From Tannerellaceae bacterium (GTDB lineage: Bacteria > Bacteroidota > Bacteroidia > Bacteroidales > Tannerellaceae): a stretch of 21,081 bases of DNA. A program made the translations under genes and the position numbers. The notes below the pieces were generated by a model that saw only the letters and a program-made list of their open reading frames with translations, was not told the origin of the DNA and searched no databases. Below, piece by piece: positions 2,033 to 11,489 of the stretch (its first letter is position 1; each line of letters begins with the position of its first letter). The DNA is taken from NCBI GenBank assembly GCA_031284275.1, contig JAITAD010000084.1:1-21081 (forward strand). Reading direction: 5' to 3'.

Positions 2033-2418
2033 TGCTGCGCAGGAGACTTGAAAGTAAAATACTTGTTGAGGACGAAATTGACCGCCGTATAGACGCCCAT
2101 GGCGATGAGTTGGTTGCTATAGGGGCTGAAAGCCATGTGCCGGCGCAGCAACAGCAGGACGCCGAGTTGCAGGAGGTAACATATCAGGAAGGCGATGAGG
2201 AAACGCAAGCCACCCGCAAACCACCCGGTGTTGCTGCGGAATGTCCAGCGGCGGTTCCAGAAGAAACTGTTGAGCAACCCGGCGACATAGCCCGTGAAGT
2301 TGGACGTCACATCGCCTGTGCCGCACCAATGCATCATCACCCATATCACGGCAGCGGTGAGCAGCGTATTACCTGCGCCCACTACGCCGTATTTTAAGGC
2401 TTGTCTGACCGTTTCCAT
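2029..2418 (-). CDS. GtrA-family membrane protein, putative polyprenyl-phosphate-sugar flippase
   Basis: A 129-residue membrane protein with four hydrophobic segments (about 8-28, 38-55, 67-90 and 100-122). It has the spacing and typical GtrA-family features: FxxVGxxNT-like GVVGAGNTL near the start, N-S-F-x-W-N-R-R-W-T-F in the middle, and N-F-V-x-N-K-Y-F-T-F near the end. Members of this family are proposed to flip polyprenyl-phosphate sugars to the periplasmic face for modification of surface glycans. It is coupled downstream to the glycosyltransferase by an ATGA overlap, and its start lies 25 nt inside the preceding gene. Family assignment is firm; the substrate is inferred from the neighbour. 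Confidence 0.9.
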   Translation of the reverse strand: METVRQALKYGVVGAGNTLLTAAVIWVMMHWCGTGDVTSNFTGYVAGLLNSFFWNRRWTFRSNTGWFAGGLRFLIAFLICYLLQLGVLLLLRRHMAFSPYSNQLIAMGVYTAVNFVLNKYFTFKSPAQQ

Positions 2419-3143
2419 TGCTGTATCTCTTCCTCGGCCATCCTTTTCGCATTCGAGACGAAGAGTCGGGGCGAGAGGAAATGACCGTATTCATTGCACT
2501 CTTCGATGAGTTTGGCCAGAATACTGAAGCAATCGGTAGCGAGCGGTACGAGGAAGAGCAGTTCCACATGCCGTTCGCCCACATTGAGGATATCTATCTC
2601 GCAACCTTTTTCCGAGAGAATATAAGTGAACTCCTTCTCCATGAAACGCTGTTGCCACGCTTCGAAAGGAGCGTCGCCGTTGGAGGAGAAGAGGGCGAAG
2701 AAACGCAGTTTGTCGTCTTTTGCGCCCAGTCCGGAGGCTATCAGCATGTGCGGCTCGCCCAACAGTTCCGTCTGCAAACGGACGCTCAGGTCGGAGACAG
2801 CCAGCTGCAGCCAGTCGGCCAGCTCGCCTTCGGCCGTTGCGGCAAACGTTTCCAGTCGGCGCAAGGCTTTGATTGATCCGGAAACGACCAAGACGACGAT
2901 AGCATGTTTTTTCTCGTTTATCCCGTTCACCTCGCTGCACAACGCTTGAAAGGCTTCCTCTATCTCGGCCTCCGACACCTCGATCTGTCCGAAACGGCGG
3001 CGCGTCATACATTCGCGGCGCACGGCATGGAACCATGCGTCCCGCATTTCGGCAGACACAGCGTTACTCATCAGATGGATACGTCCATCCGCACGAGCGA
3101 GGGATTCACGAAACCTCCTGAAGACATCTTCCTGCTGGTGCAT
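2394..3143 (-). CDS. Conserved-looking protein of unknown function
   Basis: 249 residues, probably cytoplasmic: there is no signal peptide or membrane helix. I do not recognise the family. The N-terminal third is charged and helical, with many Arg and Glu. The middle has a hydrophobic strand (HAIVVLVVSGS, about 82-92), and the rest reads as an alternating alpha/beta domain with pairs such as HMLIASGL and HVELLFLVPL. It is the first gene of the operon leading to the GtrA and glycosyltransferase genes. It overlaps the GtrA start by 25 nt, so co-expression is likely. A -7 box lies 56 nt upstream. A regulatory or accessory role in surface glycan modification would be a guess from position only. 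Confidence 0.8.
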   Translation of the reverse strand: MHQQEDVFRRFRESLARADGRIHLMSNAVSAEMRDAWFHAVRRECMTRRRFGQIEVSEAEIEEAFQALCSEVNGINEKKHAIVVLVVSGSIKALRRLETFAATAEGELADWLQLAVSDLSVRLQTELLGEPHMLIASGLGAKDDKLRFFALFSSNGDAPFEAWQQRFMEKEFTYILSEKGCEIDILNVGERHVELLFLVPLATDCFSILAKLIEECNEYGHFLSPRLFVSNAKRMAEEEIQQWKRSDKP

Positions 3144-6639: not shown

Positions 6640-7740
6640 TCAGGACGGCAAAAAATGAAGGTGGAGGACGACGAGTTCGGAGCGGGTGCCGATGCGGTAG
6701 GGTTGGCCGGCTATGCCGATGCCGGAGCTGACGACGTATTGCGTAGCGCCTTTGCGGCAGTAGCCGTAAGGACAGTCGTAGACGAGACGTAACAGCAGAG
6801 GGGCCGGCCATATCTGGCCGTTGTGGGTGTGTCCGTGCAGGCAAAGGTCAGCGCCGTTCATGGCGGATTCGTTGAGCGTATTGGGCTGGTGGTCAAGAAC
6901 GATGAGGGGTTTGGAACGATCCGGAAGACGCATGAGGGAAGCGAGCGTCGCCCGTTGCGGGTTGATATAGTCGTCACGCCCTACGAGGTAGAGGAGAGAG
7001 TCCGGCGAGGCGACGGAATCGACGAGGACGGTGGCGCCGACGGTATGCAGCCATCGTTGCTTGGCGATATAGTTGGCACGGTATTCGTGGTTGCCGTAGA
7101 CGAGATAGACGCCCAAAGGCGCATGGAGGCGGCGCAGGTCGTCCTCAGCGTGCATGGCTTCGGCGAAACGCACCTCGTAATCGATCAGGTCACCTGCCAA
7201 CACGACGATGTCCGGACACTGGGCATTACTCAATTCCACGTAACGCCGAACCCATTCCTTGCCGACGATTTCGCCGATATGGAGGTCGCTCATGAGGACT
7301 ATCGTCAGGCTGTCCCGTTCCGGCACATGTTTGGGTATCGTCAGTCGGACGTGGCGCACGACGGGGTGAGACACCTTGTCGTAGCCTGCCACCAACAGGA
7401 GGGCTATCCCGACCATGGCAACAGTCGCCAATCCGGCGCGCAACGTCCCGCGCCACCGTTCGGGGGCGAAGCGTAAGGGCAGCAGAAGGATGGGGACGGC
7501 GGCGTAATAAATCAGCGCCAAGTACCACGTGTTACAGACGAGCATGATGGGAATCATCACGGCGTCCGGCAATACGTCGTGGAAGAAAAAGCCCGTGAAA
7601 AAGACTCCCCATTCCAATGCGAAAACGCCCAAGAGCGCTTTTCGCCCCCATCCGCCTTTCGGCAACCAACGCCATGCCCACCAACAGATCATCCCTCCGA
7701 GGATGACCTGCCCGTAAACGGATTGCAGGAAAACCCTCAT
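6640..7740 (-). CDS. Membrane-anchored metallophosphoesterase (YkuE-like)
   Basis: 366 residues. Four or so hydrophobic segments occupy about residues 8-120, followed by a calcineurin-like metallophosphoesterase domain. The dinuclear-metal motifs appear in order: SDLHIG (151-156), AGDLID (182-187), GNHEY (216-220), DHQP (283-286) and HGHTHNG (302-308). This layout is typical of YkuE-type membrane phosphoesterases; relatives act on phospholipid or UDP-diacylglucosamine substrates, but the substrate here cannot be inferred. It is the last gene of the leftward operon, starting 3 nt after the nitroreductase stop, and ends 20 nt from the S46 gene. No terminator hairpin is evident in that gap. Confidence 0.92.
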   Translation of the reverse strand: MRVFLQSVYGQVILGGMICWWAWRWLPKGGWGRKALLGVFALEWGVFFTGFFFHDVLPDAVMIPIMLVCNTWYLALIYYAAVPILLLPLRFAPERWRGTLRAGLATVAMVGIALLLVAGYDKVSHPVVRHVRLTIPKHVPERDSLTIVLMSDLHIGEIVGKEWVRRYVELSNAQCPDIVVLAGDLIDYEVRFAEAMHAEDDLRRLHAPLGVYLVYGNHEYRANYIAKQRWLHTVGATVLVDSVASPDSLLYLVGRDDYINPQRATLASLMRLPDRSKPLIVLDHQPNTLNESAMNGADLCLHGHTHNGQIWPAPLLLRLVYDCPYGYCRKGATQYVVSSGIGIAGQPYRIGTRSELVVLHLHFLPS

Positions 7741-7743
7741 TCG

Positions 7744-8379
7744 CTACTCCTTAGGATAGCCGACGGGATTATTCATCAGCAGGAGATGCGATTCTTTGAG
7801 TTGGAGAATGCGGGTGAGCGTTTCCTTATCCATCGTGGCGCGCGGGACGGTAGCCAGTCCGAGGGCGGCACAGGCGACGTTGATGTTTTGGCATACGATG
7901 CCCACATCTACGGCGCCGATGAGTTTCGTCCGTTCGTCACCTCCGCGTAGACGCGACAAGTCGGCTGCCAACACGATACTGACGGGCGCTTCGGCTGCGA
8001 ACGCCTGTCCTGCGGCGACGGCCGTCCGGAAATCACCGGCGGTGAGCAGGCGGAGGAGATGCCCTCCGGCATCGTAGAGGTAAGCCCCCTCTTTGGTGAG
8101 GACAAAGACGTCCACCTCCTGCGCATTGACAGCCGATGGCGCCGTCCGCCGTCCGTCGGGACGGTTCACGCCGTTGGCCGCCCAGAGCAGGTCTGACAAG
8201 TCCTGCGCCGAGAGTTCCTTCTCCGAAAAAGTGCGCTCCGACTTCCTTTTTTCCAGCACCTTCATCAGTCCCTCGCCCCGTTCCCTGTCGGGCGTCACCA
8301 GCTTGATTTCCTTTTCCTGCCCGAAGGCGCATCCGACAAACAGGCAGGAGGCCATCGCTACCGTAAATAAACTTCTCAT
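7744..8379 (-). CDS. Exported nitroreductase-family protein (SagB/ThcOx-like)
   Basis: 211 residues with an N-terminal signal sequence. LFVGC (13-17) is a possible but imperfect lipobox; alternatively cleavage falls after AFG. The rest is a nitroreductase fold: RKSERTF at 45-51 is the usual FMN phosphate-binding Arg/Ser segment, and LLWAANGVNRPDGRRTAPSA at 64-83 is the second FMN contact. The last helix-strand region ends PVGYPKE, a common nitroreductase ending. The family is FMN-dependent; exported members in Bacteroidetes have no settled substrate. An AGAACGA stretch lies just before the start. It sits 18 nt after the PD-(D/E)XK-like gene and 3 nt before the metallophosphoesterase, so it is clearly in the same operon. 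Confidence 0.9.
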   Translation of the reverse strand: MRSLFTVAMASCLFVGCAFGQEKEIKLVTPDRERGEGLMKVLEKRKSERTFSEKELSAQDLSDLLWAANGVNRPDGRRTAPSAVNAQEVDVFVLTKEGAYLYDAGGHLLRLLTAGDFRTAVAAGQAFAAEAPVSIVLAADLSRLRGGDERTKLIGAVDVGIVCQNINVACAALGLATVPRATMDKETLTRILQLKESHLLLMNNPVGYPKE

Positions 8380-8397
8380 ATCGTTCTCATTTTGTGG

Positions 8398-8967
8398 TTA
8401 TACCGTGATTTCCGTCGTTTCCATGAAAGAGAAGCCCAAATAGTATTCGGCAGGCGCTTGCGGCAATCGGATAAACGGCTGCGCTACATCGGGGATTGGA
8501 TGGGTTTTGGGGCGGTTGGAGAAAACACATTTCTTTTTTGCAAAGACACTTATGAAGCTTCGTGTTGCTTCTACCTTCGTGAGTAGTTTGGCGGTCGTGA
8601 GCAGTTGGTGTTTGGCATCTCGCCGCTTGTTCTTCGCCCTGCTGCTTTGGGAAAGTTCGTGCAGGATGAAGACCGATTTACCCTCCTCATAGACAATGAA
8701 ATCGCAACGTTTTATCCCCTCCGCATGTTTCGGCATTTGGTTGAGGAAGTTTTCGTAGTCGATGAGGACGAGCGTTTTCCGTTCCCTGTTGATGTACGTA
8801 GCGCTGCCTGCGCCGACAGGTTGCTTGATGCGGGGGCGTTTGTCCTGAATATCGAAACGGGCGTCACAGACCGTTTCCTTGCGGACGGAAAGCCGCTCCG
8901 GCAAGGGATACTCCGGCTTCGATGAGTGGAGATGGTCGGCGAGGCCGGAAAGCGGAAGGTCATTCAT
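8398..8967 (-). CDS. Small ATPase partner with PD-(D/E)XK-like core
   Basis: 189 residues, no signal or membrane helix; I know no named family for it. Residues 64-130 look like a PD-(D/E)XK nuclease core. A helix with Glu83 (KHAEGIKRC) leads into a strand with Asp89 (CDFIVY), then a strand ending at Glu104 (SVFILHELS), then a basic loop and a helix with Gln121 (AKHQLLTTAKLL). In a standard site the pattern after the second acid would be E-x-K; here it is E-L-S, so the lysine is replaced by Ser106 or supplied from Lys113-118. Its ATG overlaps the ATPase stop by 8 nt (ATGAATGA), so the two must be made together. Local base composition is lower in GC than the neighbours (22 of 60 at 8521-8580), consistent with acquisition. 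It might be a nuclease, or a nuclease-fold protein that has lost activity. Confidence 0.75.
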   Translation of the reverse strand: MNDLPLSGLADHLHSSKPEYPLPERLSVRKETVCDARFDIQDKRPRIKQPVGAGSATYINRERKTLVLIDYENFLNQMPKHAEGIKRCDFIVYEEGKSVFILHELSQSSRAKNKRRDAKHQLLTTAKLLTKVEATRSFISVFAKKKCVFSNRPKTHPIPDVAQPFIRLPQAPAEYYLGFSFMETTEITV

Positions 8968-10051
8968 TTTCCAGCTCGTTGTAACGGTCGTAGATGTCGG
9001 CTATCGGGTCGGACATCGAACGGGTGTTGATAGGTACCTGTCCGGGCTGTTTCAGGTGGTTGAGATATCCACCAAATATTTCAAACACATCGACGTCCTC
9101 TTCCCGCAGGAAAGCGCCGTCCTCCTCTTTCCCTTTCATGCCGGCCATCAGGAGGAGGTTCAGGTGATTGGCGATGTAGGGGCTGTGGGTGGTCATCATC
9201 ACCGTCATGCCGTAGCCGTCATGTTTTTCCACGAGGCAGCGATTGACGATGAAGTTGATCAAGTCCCGCTGACTTTCCGGATAGAGGTTCAATTCCGGCT
9301 CTTCGATGTGAATGTGGACGTTATGGGCTGTCACCATAGGGTCGAAACGCTTCGCAAAGCTGTAATGCCGAGCGAAATACTCGACGATGACGGCCAAAGG
9401 GATGACGGCCTGTATCCCCGAAGAAGCCGTATGCAGGTCTATTTTGTAATCCTCATCACCCTCTCCTTCGGCGTTCGCAATGCAGTATTTCATGCCGAGC
9501 GGGGTCTCTTCGGCAAGGTATCTGATACCGAGGTAACCCAACGACAAATCCCTGACAGACTGCGCCGCCATCCGAAAGTCGCTGAGCGTTTCCGCCGGAA
9601 AGTAATCCATGTACTCCAACCTTTGCGCCTCCGGCAAGGCCGAGATGGTAACCCGTCGTTCCGAGACGAAACAGATCTTTTCGAGGCTTAGCTCGGTTTG
9701 GGGGACGATACGGGAGGCCGCAAGCACCCCGTTCGCATAGGTAATCTCCACATTGCCCCGCACGTAAGTTATCTGCGTTGTCGGACGGACGAACTTCGCC
9801 ATGCCGTTACCTTCCCATATCGTTTGCGGGAGGGAATCAAGCGGCTGCTTGGACAGCCCTGCGTGGTACAGGCAGGATCTGACAGTGAGCGTCTTGTATA
9901 TCCACCGGAAGAGCGCAAGCGCTTTCATGACCGTACTCTTTCCCGAGCCGGACGCCCCGACGATAACGACGAAAGGACGCACAGGATCTAATTCCACCTC
10001 GCAGATGGGGCCGAAGTTCTTGATGCGGATATATTCTTTCGGAGCCTCCAT
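8960..10051 (-). CDS. Stand-alone ABC/AAA-type ATPase (AAA_21/OLD-like, no Toprim)
   Basis: 363 residues, cytoplasmic. The N-terminus is typical of SMC/RecF/OLD-like ATPases (YIRIKNFGPI). Walker A is GASGSGKST at 32-40. An SERR segment near 130 sits where related ATPases have an AERS-like motif. An ABC-like signature ASSGIQAVIPL lies near 209-219, Walker B IEEPELNLYP at 249-258, and the H-loop THSPYI at 288-293. There is no Toprim nuclease domain after it, so any nuclease must be supplied in trans. This makes it similar in design to the ATPase subunits of Septu or PARIS systems, but the partner is neither an HNH nor a DUF4435 protein. It starts 7 nt after nhaD and overlaps its small partner by 8 nt. 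I see no strong ribosome site. Confidence 0.9.
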   Translation of the reverse strand: MEAPKEYIRIKNFGPICEVELDPVRPFVVIVGASGSGKSTVMKALALFRWIYKTLTVRSCLYHAGLSKQPLDSLPQTIWEGNGMAKFVRPTTQITYVRGNVEITYANGVLAASRIVPQTELSLEKICFVSERRVTISALPEAQRLEYMDYFPAETLSDFRMAAQSVRDLSLGYLGIRYLAEETPLGMKYCIANAEGEGDEDYKIDLHTASSGIQAVIPLAVIVEYFARHYSFAKRFDPMVTAHNVHIHIEEPELNLYPESQRDLINFIVNRCLVEKHDGYGMTVMMTTHSPYIANHLNLLLMAGMKGKEEDGAFLREEDVDVFEIFGGYLNHLKQPGQVPINTRSMSDPIADIYDRYNELENE

Positions 10052-10058
10052 CGTTCGG

Positions 10059-11489
10059 TCAGTTGAGGATGAGCGTTTGGAGGTAATAGACGAGGGCGCC
10101 GGAGAGGTAGCCGGCGGAGGCTATCCACGTGATGCGTTTGAGGTACCAGAAGAAAGGGATACGTACAAGCCCCATGACCACCACGCCGGCGGCCGAACCC
10201 AACAGGAGGATGCTGCCCCCTACGCCGGCACAATAGGCCAGAAACTGCCAGAAAGCGCCGTCGGGCAGAAAGTTGGCCGCATAAACGGGGTCTGCCGCCG
10301 TGGCGAGCATCGTCTCATTGATGACGGGGTACATCCCGATGGCGCCGGCCACGATGGGGACGTTATCGACTATGGCCGATATCATGCCGATAATGACGTC
10401 GATGGCCAGCACGTTGCCGACGGTACGGTCGAGCATGGCGGCGAACGAGCCGAGTATGCCGGAGAAGCGCAGCGTATCGACGGCCAGCAGGATACCGATG
10501 AAGAAGAGCAGCGTCGTCCAGTCTATCCGTTGGACGACTTTCGAGAGGCGCAGCTTGATGCTTTCATCGACGGAGGACTTGCGGCGGTACATGATATCCG
10601 TATATATCCAGAGGACGCCGACGCCCAACAGGATACCCATGAAAGGCGGCAGATGGGTGAGGCCTTTGAAGATGGGGACGAAGAGGAGGCAACAGAGGCC
10701 GAGTATGAGGATAGAGAGGCGTTCTTTGGTTTTGAGTTCGTTCAGGATGGCGTTTTCTTTCTGGCGGACGGGGACATTAGGCGGAGTGACGTTGCCGTGA
10801 AGCGCCGGCAGCAGAATGGCCAACGGGACGGCGACCGAGACGATACTTGGCAACCACAGGTGGGATATCGTCTCCCAAGCGGATATATTGCCGTGCACCC
10901 AGAGCATGATGGTGGTGACGTCGCCTATGGGCGACCATGCGCCGCCGCTGTTGGCGGCGATGACGATCATGCTGCCGAAGACCCACCGCTCGCGGAAGTT
11001 ACCGACCCACTTGCTGACGAGCATCACCATGACGATAGAGGTGGTGAGGTTGTCGAGAACGGCTGACATGAAGAACGTCAGAACAGTAACCATGAAGAGG
11101 ATACGCCGTTTGTTCTTCGTCGTTATTCTGTTGGTGATGAACAGGAAGCCGCCGTGTACGTCTACCAGCTCGACGGTCACCATCGCCCCGATGAGGAAAA
11201 ATATCGTGCTCGCTATCCCGCCCAGACACTCCACGATCTGAAAGTCCAGAACGAAATGCAGACACTGTTCGGCAAAAGGCAGGTCGGCGTACTGCGGCTT
11301 CCCCAAGAGAAAGATTTCGAACTCGTGCGCCGACACCGTGGGGATATAGTCGCTTGCCGAGAAAGTATACAGCACCCACAGCAGCGTACCCGTCAGTAAC
11401 GCCGTCCCCGCCTTGTTTACCTTTAAGGGATGTTCGAGTGAGATGAAAAGGTACCCTAAGACGAACAGCGTTACGATAGCTACTTCCAT
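10059..11489 (-). CDS. nhaD: NhaD-type Na+/H+ antiporter
   Basis: A 476-residue inner-membrane protein with about a dozen hydrophobic segments, exchanging cytoplasmic Na+ (or Li+) for protons. NhaD and ion-transporter superfamily signatures are visible: SAVLDNLTTSIVM in the first half, NSGGAWSPIGDVTT just after it, the second inverted-repeat counterpart SAIVDNVPIVAG, and GGSILLLGSAAGVV near the C-terminus. Length fits the family. It is the first gene of the five-gene leftward operon. A candidate promoter lies in the 94-nt gap it shares with the divergent small membrane protein gene. Confidence 0.93.
   Translation of the reverse strand: MEVAIVTLFVLGYLFISLEHPLKVNKAGTALLTGTLLWVLYTFSASDYIPTVSAHEFEIFLLGKPQYADLPFAEQCLHFVLDFQIVECLGGIASTIFFLIGAMVTVELVDVHGGFLFITNRITTKNKRRILFMVTVLTFFMSAVLDNLTTSIVMVMLVSKWVGNFRERWVFGSMIVIAANSGGAWSPIGDVTTIMLWVHGNISAWETISHLWLPSIVSVAVPLAILLPALHGNVTPPNVPVRQKENAILNELKTKERLSILILGLCCLLFVPIFKGLTHLPPFMGILLGVGVLWIYTDIMYRRKSSVDESIKLRLSKVVQRIDWTTLLFFIGILLAVDTLRFSGILGSFAAMLDRTVGNVLAIDVIIGMISAIVDNVPIVAGAIGMYPVINETMLATAADPVYAANFLPDGAFWQFLAYCAGVGGSILLLGSAAGVVVMGLVRIPFFWYLKRITWIASAGYLSGALVYYLQTLILN

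Follow-up and report, generated by a model that had tools for sequence, protein, structure and literature searches.

Close in design to the locus analyzed here is WonAB, a two-gene system of an ATPase and a PD-(D/E)XK nuclease from the Vibrio cholerae WASA-1 prophage (PMC12137116). Its published accounts describe protection of V. cholerae from phage ICP1 via abortive infection and activity against some coliphages in Escherichia coli (PMC12137116, PMC12409358). Defense is reported to require both genes, the ATPase residues of WonA, and Lys71 of WonB, and WonB is predicted to bind the C-terminal extensions of WonA (PMC12137116). Overproduction of WonB leaves DNA intact and halts translation, from which the authors suggest an rRNA or tRNA target (PMC12137116, PMC12409358). 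They relate WonAB both to an operon termed "OLD-ABC ATPase + novel REase" and to PD-T4-4 (PMC12137116), an E. coli system (Vassallo 2022, PMC9519451) that a published table lists as an AAA_15 ATPase with a PD-(D/E)XK domain (PMC10952713). Systems with PDC names derive from a guilt-by-embedding approach, and PDC-S01 and PDC-S27 are described as single proteins that fuse an ATPase to a PD-(D/E)XK domain (PMC12988326). Here, we compare with these systems a gene pair in a 21,081-nucleotide (nt) stretch of DNA from a Tannerellaceae bacterium (assembly GCA_031284275.1, contig JAITAD010000084.1, positions 1 to 21,081), referred to as the window.

A divergent variant of a known two-gene design

The pair lies on the minus strand, where a 363-residue ABC-type ATPase (open reading frame [ORF] 10051..8960) is followed by a 189-residue protein (ORF 8967..8398); the two ORFs overlap by 8 nt (8960-8967), as a first, sequence-only reading of this DNA had stated. 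We put at about two in three the probability that they form a two-gene defense-type module of a known kind, in which an OLD-type ABC ATPase is paired with a small PD-(D/E)XK nuclease, with the defense role drawn by analogy from relatives. The features on which the comparison turns are the following.

8960..10051, minus strand: OLD/PtuA-type ABC ATPase without Toprim, 363 residues, presumed sensor and switch (ORF, motifs, models)
8398..8967, minus strand: PD-(D/E)XK-like nuclease, 189 residues, presumed effector (ORF, profile, predicted fold)
9932..9958, minus strand: Walker A, ATPase residues 32-40, GASGSGKST (sequence and alignment)
9322..9323, minus strand: 22-residue in-frame gap relative to homologs, between ATPase residues 243 and 244 (alignment, homolog measurement)
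9185..9187, minus strand: H-loop His289 of the ATPase (sequence and alignment)
8963..9151, minus strand: ATPase C-terminal tail, residues 301-363, which covaries with the nuclease; proposed nuclease dock (distance correlations)
8752..8754, minus strand: nuclease Glu72, in the helix preceding the core strands, likely motif I acid (alignment, Glu or Asp in 63 of 67; model)
8701..8703, minus strand: nuclease Asp89, motif II (alignment)
8650..8658, minus strand: nuclease E104-L105-S106, motif III, with Ser replacing the usual Lys (alignment)
8626..8628, minus strand: nuclease Lys114, the proposed relocated lysine near the start of the next helix, at Gln121 minus 7 (alignment and model)
8605..8607, minus strand: nuclease Gln121 (alignment, 65 of 67)

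The pair shares with WonAB an OLD-type ABC ATPase lacking Toprim and, next in the same gene order, a small downstream protein for which a PD-(D/E)XK nuclease fold is moderately supported. Docking on the C-terminal region of the ATPase, predicted for WonB, is proposed for the window nuclease as well. The nucleases themselves differ: WonB is a 16.1-kDa protein that needs Lys71, whereas the 189-residue window nuclease has Ser in its E-x-K position and carries its lysine, Lys114, in the helix that follows. The assignment of Lys71 to motif III is taken from the wording of the paper (PMC12137116), and the comparison with WonAB is by description rather than by sequence.

Both window proteins match the paired models of PDC-M29, the nearest candidate system listed in PADLOC-DB 2.0.0 (A, 7e-37; B, 2.8e-5). 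The B score is far weaker than those of strong members, among them Bacteroidota relatives such as L085 (5.7e-62) and L091 (2.1e-67), which form the clade neighboring that of the window in both the ATPase and the partner trees. The clade of the window is separate, and PDLC04563 is reached at 1e-3 by 9 of its 60 aligned partners; unlike the window nuclease, the strong B matches checked (L066, L067, L075, L085, and L091, and L090 at 1.7e-10) all carry the E-x-K lysine. The name PDC-M29 was not found in papers in a limited search without supplements or preprints. As for PD-T4-4, the window ATPase matches PD-T4-4_A at 1.5e-13 over residues 200-308, but the nuclease has no PD-T4-4_B match up to an E value of 1 and just 1 of 60 partners matches (1.9e-4), indicating remote similarity only.

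Other ATPase-based systems are set apart by their nucleases. The nuclease of Septu PtuAB and of the retron Ec78/Ec83/Eco7 effectors is HNH, in contrast to the PD-(D/E)XK-like protein of the window, for which no HNH match was found in PADLOC or Pfam. AriB of PARIS is DUF4435/Toprim-like, and although AriA models match the window ATPase (4.7e-22), the small protein has no AriB, DUF4435, or Toprim match. In OLD and Gabija, a Toprim domain is fused to the ATPase, unlike the 363-residue window ATPase, for which AAA models alone reach the Pfam cut-off. In the sequence-only reading, too, the partner fitted neither Septu nor PARIS. It had also considered the module to be without a name, which does not stand, because WonAB and PD-T4-4 share the design and the PDC-M29 models match. 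A match to an already named system, which it had listed as a refutation, applies at the level of kind, and the branch of the window is divergent: the design is already known from WonAB, PD-T4-4, and PDC-M29, and the window pair is a divergent variant of it.

The ATPase has the intact motifs claimed for it, namely, Walker A (G32-S39), signature (S210-Q214), Walker B (H248-E253), and H-loop (H289). AAA_15, AAA_21, and AAA_23 are the only models to reach the Pfam cut-off, and no Toprim match was found in Pfam. Across 23 aligned sequences, including that of the window, the key positions are invariant except for residue 33, which is Ala in the window and Glu in most others, and Q214, which is nearly invariant. 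The predicted fold is PtuA-like, with the PtuA proteins of Septu and retrons as the best structural matches of the model.

A nuclease-like core with a proposed relocated lysine

The structure prediction proposed in the earlier reading yielded an AlphaFold model of the 189-residue protein with a predicted local distance difference test score (pLDDT) of 91.5, whose weak structural matches are mostly PD-(D/E)XK enzymes; a Foldseek search with this model returned no match at an E value of 0.001 or better in PDB or BFVD. The model gives moderate support to a PD-(D/E)XK-like nuclease fold. When 58 downstream partners were made into a profile that excluded the window protein, this protein scored an E value of 1.7e-44 in a 73-sequence partner set, indicating kinship beyond chance. 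A protein database search with the nuclease profile, word based and limited, gave five matches, two of which were the window protein and a near copy.

Among 67 aligned partners, Asp89 is kept in 66, position 104 is Glu in 56 and Asp in 11, and Gln121 is kept in 65, and so three of the four core residues named in the sequence-only reading hold up. The fourth, Glu83, is ruled out as an active-site residue, being Glu in just 4 of the 67; the conserved acid preceding the core is instead position 72, which is Glu or Asp in 63. Lys114 had been overlooked. With D89, E104, and lysines at complementary positions, the family fits the PD-(D/E)XK active-site pattern, either as D...(D/E)xK or in its migrated-lysine variant.

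The two lysine positions are mutually exclusive. In a first set of 77 partners, 54 lack the Lys of E-x-K and carry one precisely 7 positions ahead of the conserved Gln, 23 show the E-x-K lysine and no Lys at Gln minus 7, and none has both or neither. All of the 13 further distinct partners gathered after the rule was fixed obey it (L137-L143, P0123-P0125, L144, L145, and L147). The final tally of 91 partners, 90 of them distinct since one identical copy in L001 is included, comprises 58 with Lys at Gln minus 7 (the window among them), 33 with E-x-K, and none with both or neither; partners that are broken or shorter than 150 residues were not scored. Of 1,431 lysine-bearing column pairs in an 88-row alignment, only the pair of motif III and Gln minus 7 is fully complementary, the next best reaching 64 of 88.

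The trees call for more than one change of lysine position. The ATPase tree requires a minimum of 5 switches, 3 of which are forced by well-supported branches, and some of these switches may be partner exchanges; on the partner tree, built without the lysine columns, 3 are needed and 2 are forced. Both trees contain long branches. An independent-pairs sign test on the lysine switch had all pairs in the expected direction (3 pairs on the ATPase tree, P = 0.25; 2 pairs on the partner tree, P = 0.5), and its lack of significance stems from the small number of switch events.

Migration of the lysine from motif III to the motif IV helix is described in other PD-(D/E)XK families, and YhgA-like proteins are reported to show a similar reciprocal correlation, between Gln and Lys/Arg (PMC1913061, PMC1189080). 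The migration itself is known, and the clean reciprocity inside one effector family is what this analysis adds. No paper describing either this reciprocity or the tail-nuclease covariation reported below was found in a limited search that left out supplements and preprints and included no query aimed at tail exchange. As far as the alignments indicate, Lys114 would stand in for the usual E-x-K lysine in the window nuclease.

Joint variation of the ATPase tail and the nuclease

Distances in the ATPase tail (residues 301-363) track those of the nuclease more than those of the core, with a partial correlation given the core of 0.60 in 62 pairs and 0.47 in all 77 pairs; within the 14-row clade surrounding the window sequence, it is 0.87. 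In none of these three sets did any of 2,000 permutations, which ignore relatedness, reach a value as high. The association is confined to the end of the protein: in a 16-row set picked after the trees were seen, the partial correlation of sliding segments ranges from -0.14 to 0.20 for every segment within residues 1-295 and reaches 0.63 at 281-315 and 0.85 at both 301-335 and 321-355. In the 62-row set, values of -0.18 to 0.13 within residues 1-295 give way to 0.26, 0.43, and 0.60 in the last three segments. Loci L004 and L002, for example, are 79% identical in the core, 34% in the tail, and 27% in the nuclease.

By tail motifs picked by eye, 107 of 120 ATPases, whose partners were covered only in part, fall into two types (66 and 41). 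The other 13 were unassigned and dropped, and at least five of them are slight variants of the first type or are cut short. On the core tree of the 107 typed ATPases, 14 switches of tail type are needed, 9 of them forced by supported branches. These sequence comparisons suggest that the tail and the nuclease have been exchanged together, as one cartridge, on a conserved core. Such exchange could result either from docking of the nuclease on the tail, in line with the WonAB prediction, or from the adjacency of the two on the DNA.

Co-inheritance and distribution

The two genes are co-inherited as a module with a patchy distribution across the Bacteroidota, a co-occurrence that the sequence-only reading had proposed to check. 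An ATPase-first scan covering 84,980 species, each represented by a single genome, with the ATPase alignment as the query, recovered 79 loci, and 65 of these have a homologous partner of at least 150 residues directly downstream, its first possible start codon falling no more than 80 nt ahead of the ATPase stop or 18 nt past it. The remaining loci include a short ORF inside a longer open homologous frame (L014); a partner split over two frames next to a shortened ATPase (L029); five full-length ATPases whose nuclease is truncated or missing (L011, L012, L017, L021, and L063), which fits a costly effector; incomplete ATPase ORFs (L016, L040, and L064); longer downstream ORFs of 308 and 310 residues with weak profile scores only (L070 and L071); and distant ATPases from which the partner is absent (L078 and L079). 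In L012, L040, and L063, the nuclease is reduced to the first 41 to 47 profile positions after the ATPase gene, and L017 retains a few codons that resemble a nuclease start, after which comes a transporter-like gene.

In the converse searches, starting from the partner, an ATPase was adjacent in all 23 places examined: 12 from 11 of 395 Bacteroidota genomes (2 of them known loci), 7 new ones from 393 and 241 order-level genomes, and 4 in known genomes. In many genomes only part of the candidates was scored, such that lone partners could have escaped. Partners occur in 11 of 395 genomes of the phylum (E value, 0.001) and in 4 of 393 (1e-6) and 6 of 241 (1e-4) genomes of the orders, counts that include the center genomes G004 and G013. 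One of the 23 places (L148), with the ATPase in two ORFs and a 146-residue nuclease without the core, is a second, decaying copy within the L001 genome. On the L001 contig, a 3,355-base block that carries the final part of the ATPase gene together with the nuclease gene and the genes after it occurs twice at 100% identity (L151:3298-6652 and 6724-10078) and is probably an assembly artifact or very recent. The second nuclease copy was for this reason dropped as a tandem duplication and as an additional lysine test case.

Identical ATPases occur in metagenome-assembled genomes labeled Lachnospiraceae (L025) and Alistipes (L033), reflecting recent transfer or a binning error. Among viral contigs, 37 pattern matches yielded none that could be confirmed, and plasmids and phages contributed two records each with a distant ATPase match (24 to 29% identity). 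No empty site could be demonstrated; the best relative of the neighboring transporter (L092, 66%) has beside it no neighbor known from the window within the short stretch examined.

State and surroundings of the window copy

In the window ATPase, the span from signature to Walker B falls 22 residues short of that in all of the 118 other homologs measured (homologs came from the protein search, and 119 of 120 sequences were measurable); among the loci, a shorter span occurs only in the distant L074, L076, and L077. The window ATPase deviates at 9 of 78 near-invariant positions, the most among 120 ATPases (next highest, 4), and 4 of the 9 deviations are caused by the gap. Catalytic motifs and both reading frames are intact. 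This ATPase may be drifting or decaying; alternatively, the gap could stem from misassembly.

A CitMHS-type transporter gene (10059-11489) ends 7 bases upstream of the ATPase gene, and a nitroreductase gene (7744-8379) begins 18 bases downstream of the nuclease gene, a tight spacing that embeds the pair in a same-strand array of housekeeping-type genes. SusD and an S46 peptidase are also encoded in the window and, like the nearest relatives, point to Bacteroidales. The window contains no tRNA, and its 17 proteins include no integrase (Pfam scan) and no reverse transcriptase; a promoter and terminator scan of the window returned numbers below those of shuffled sequences. Positions 1-670 hold C/T-rich tandem repeats with a 68- to 69-nt unit (4.7 copies at 214-537 and 2.1 copies at 61-202), and positions 2394-3143 on the minus strand encode a 249-residue protein without a Pfam match.

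Proposed defense role and alternative explanations

By analogy with WonAB, a dimer of the ATPase would sense a phage-induced signal, and the nuclease would dock on the C-terminal tails of the ATPase and be restrained until ATP turnover licenses its activity. The licensed nuclease might then cut DNA or, as the authors of WonAB suggest for WonB, RNA, and so halt the infected cell or abort the infection. Over evolutionary time, the effector cartridge would be exchanged by recombination directly after the conserved H-loop region.

The expectation that relatives sit in defense islands was not borne out. At an E value of 1e-15, PADLOC detects a handful of restriction-modification and candidate genes among both 134 neighbor proteins and 132 control proteins, and we claim neither enrichment nor depletion of defense genes around the relatives, with the comparison covering the 25 families listed for each set. 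The neighbor set consists of ORFs of at least 150 residues within 6 kb of pairs (353 ORFs, of which 19 longer than 900 residues were dropped, 150 of the other 334 were drawn at random, and the last 16 were dropped). The control set comes from 14 blindly placed 14-kb stretches of pair-bearing genomes (20 requested, 5 nonexistent, one of only 1.3 kb; 138 ORFs, 6 longer than 900 residues dropped). Four of the 134 neighbors match AICARFT/IMPCHase, which perhaps marks a common insertion site.

Loss of the E-x-K lysine, seen in the ELS motif of the window protein and in 58 of 91 partners, raises the prospect that the small protein is a dead nuclease that retains only nucleic acid or ATPase binding. 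This is unlikely, because every partner without the E-x-K lysine has Lys at Gln minus 7 and none with it does, because no other lysine-column pair behaves in this way, and because the same migration is described elsewhere among PD-(D/E)XK enzymes. A role in DNA repair or recombination, comparable to that of Rad50- or RecF-type ATPases with a nuclease, is similarly improbable given the patchy occurrence of the pair, the PtuA proteins of Septu and retrons as best matches of the ATPase model, and the published discovery of the related WonAB and PD-T4-4 as phage defenses. The overlap of the genes and the retention of the ATPase in loci that have lost the nuclease could be accommodated by a simple toxin-antitoxin pair in which the ATPase merely neutralizes the nuclease, but this explanation is very unlikely: the WonAB nuclease is reported to be toxic only alongside active WonA, with simple sequestration excluded by the authors (PMC12137116), and a conserved ABC ATPase site would be needless in a mere antitoxin.

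A stronger contender bears on the cartridge only. Tail and nuclease may segregate together through linkage alone, with recombination tracts that end in the H-loop region dragging along the adjacent tail without any docking. The two are contiguous on the DNA, and the step falls immediately past the conserved H-loop stretch, where recombination would naturally occur. Against this, the nuclease sits on the C-terminal extensions in the published models of WonAB (PMC12137116), and the association in the 62-row set peaks at the extreme tail, although linkage could produce such a gradient too; we regard linkage as a serious possibility that falls a little short of even odds. A broader picture, which we offer tentatively and consider possible rather than probable, is that the pairs make up a modular immune family. 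Its conserved ATPase core, which would sense phage, would repeatedly exchange one cartridge of tail and nuclease for another, and the nuclease active site would have switched topology several times by movement of the catalytic lysine between strand and helix, perhaps evading phage inhibitors or changing substrate.

A motif search that requires E-x-K would label many effectors of this ATPase-nuclease family dead. The family also offers a natural experiment: its roughly 90 nucleases vary in active-site topology, and many of them are paired with sensors closely related to one another. It predicts a docking site for the nuclease and the identity of the catalytic lysine, and further that the sensor core can be separated from its effector.
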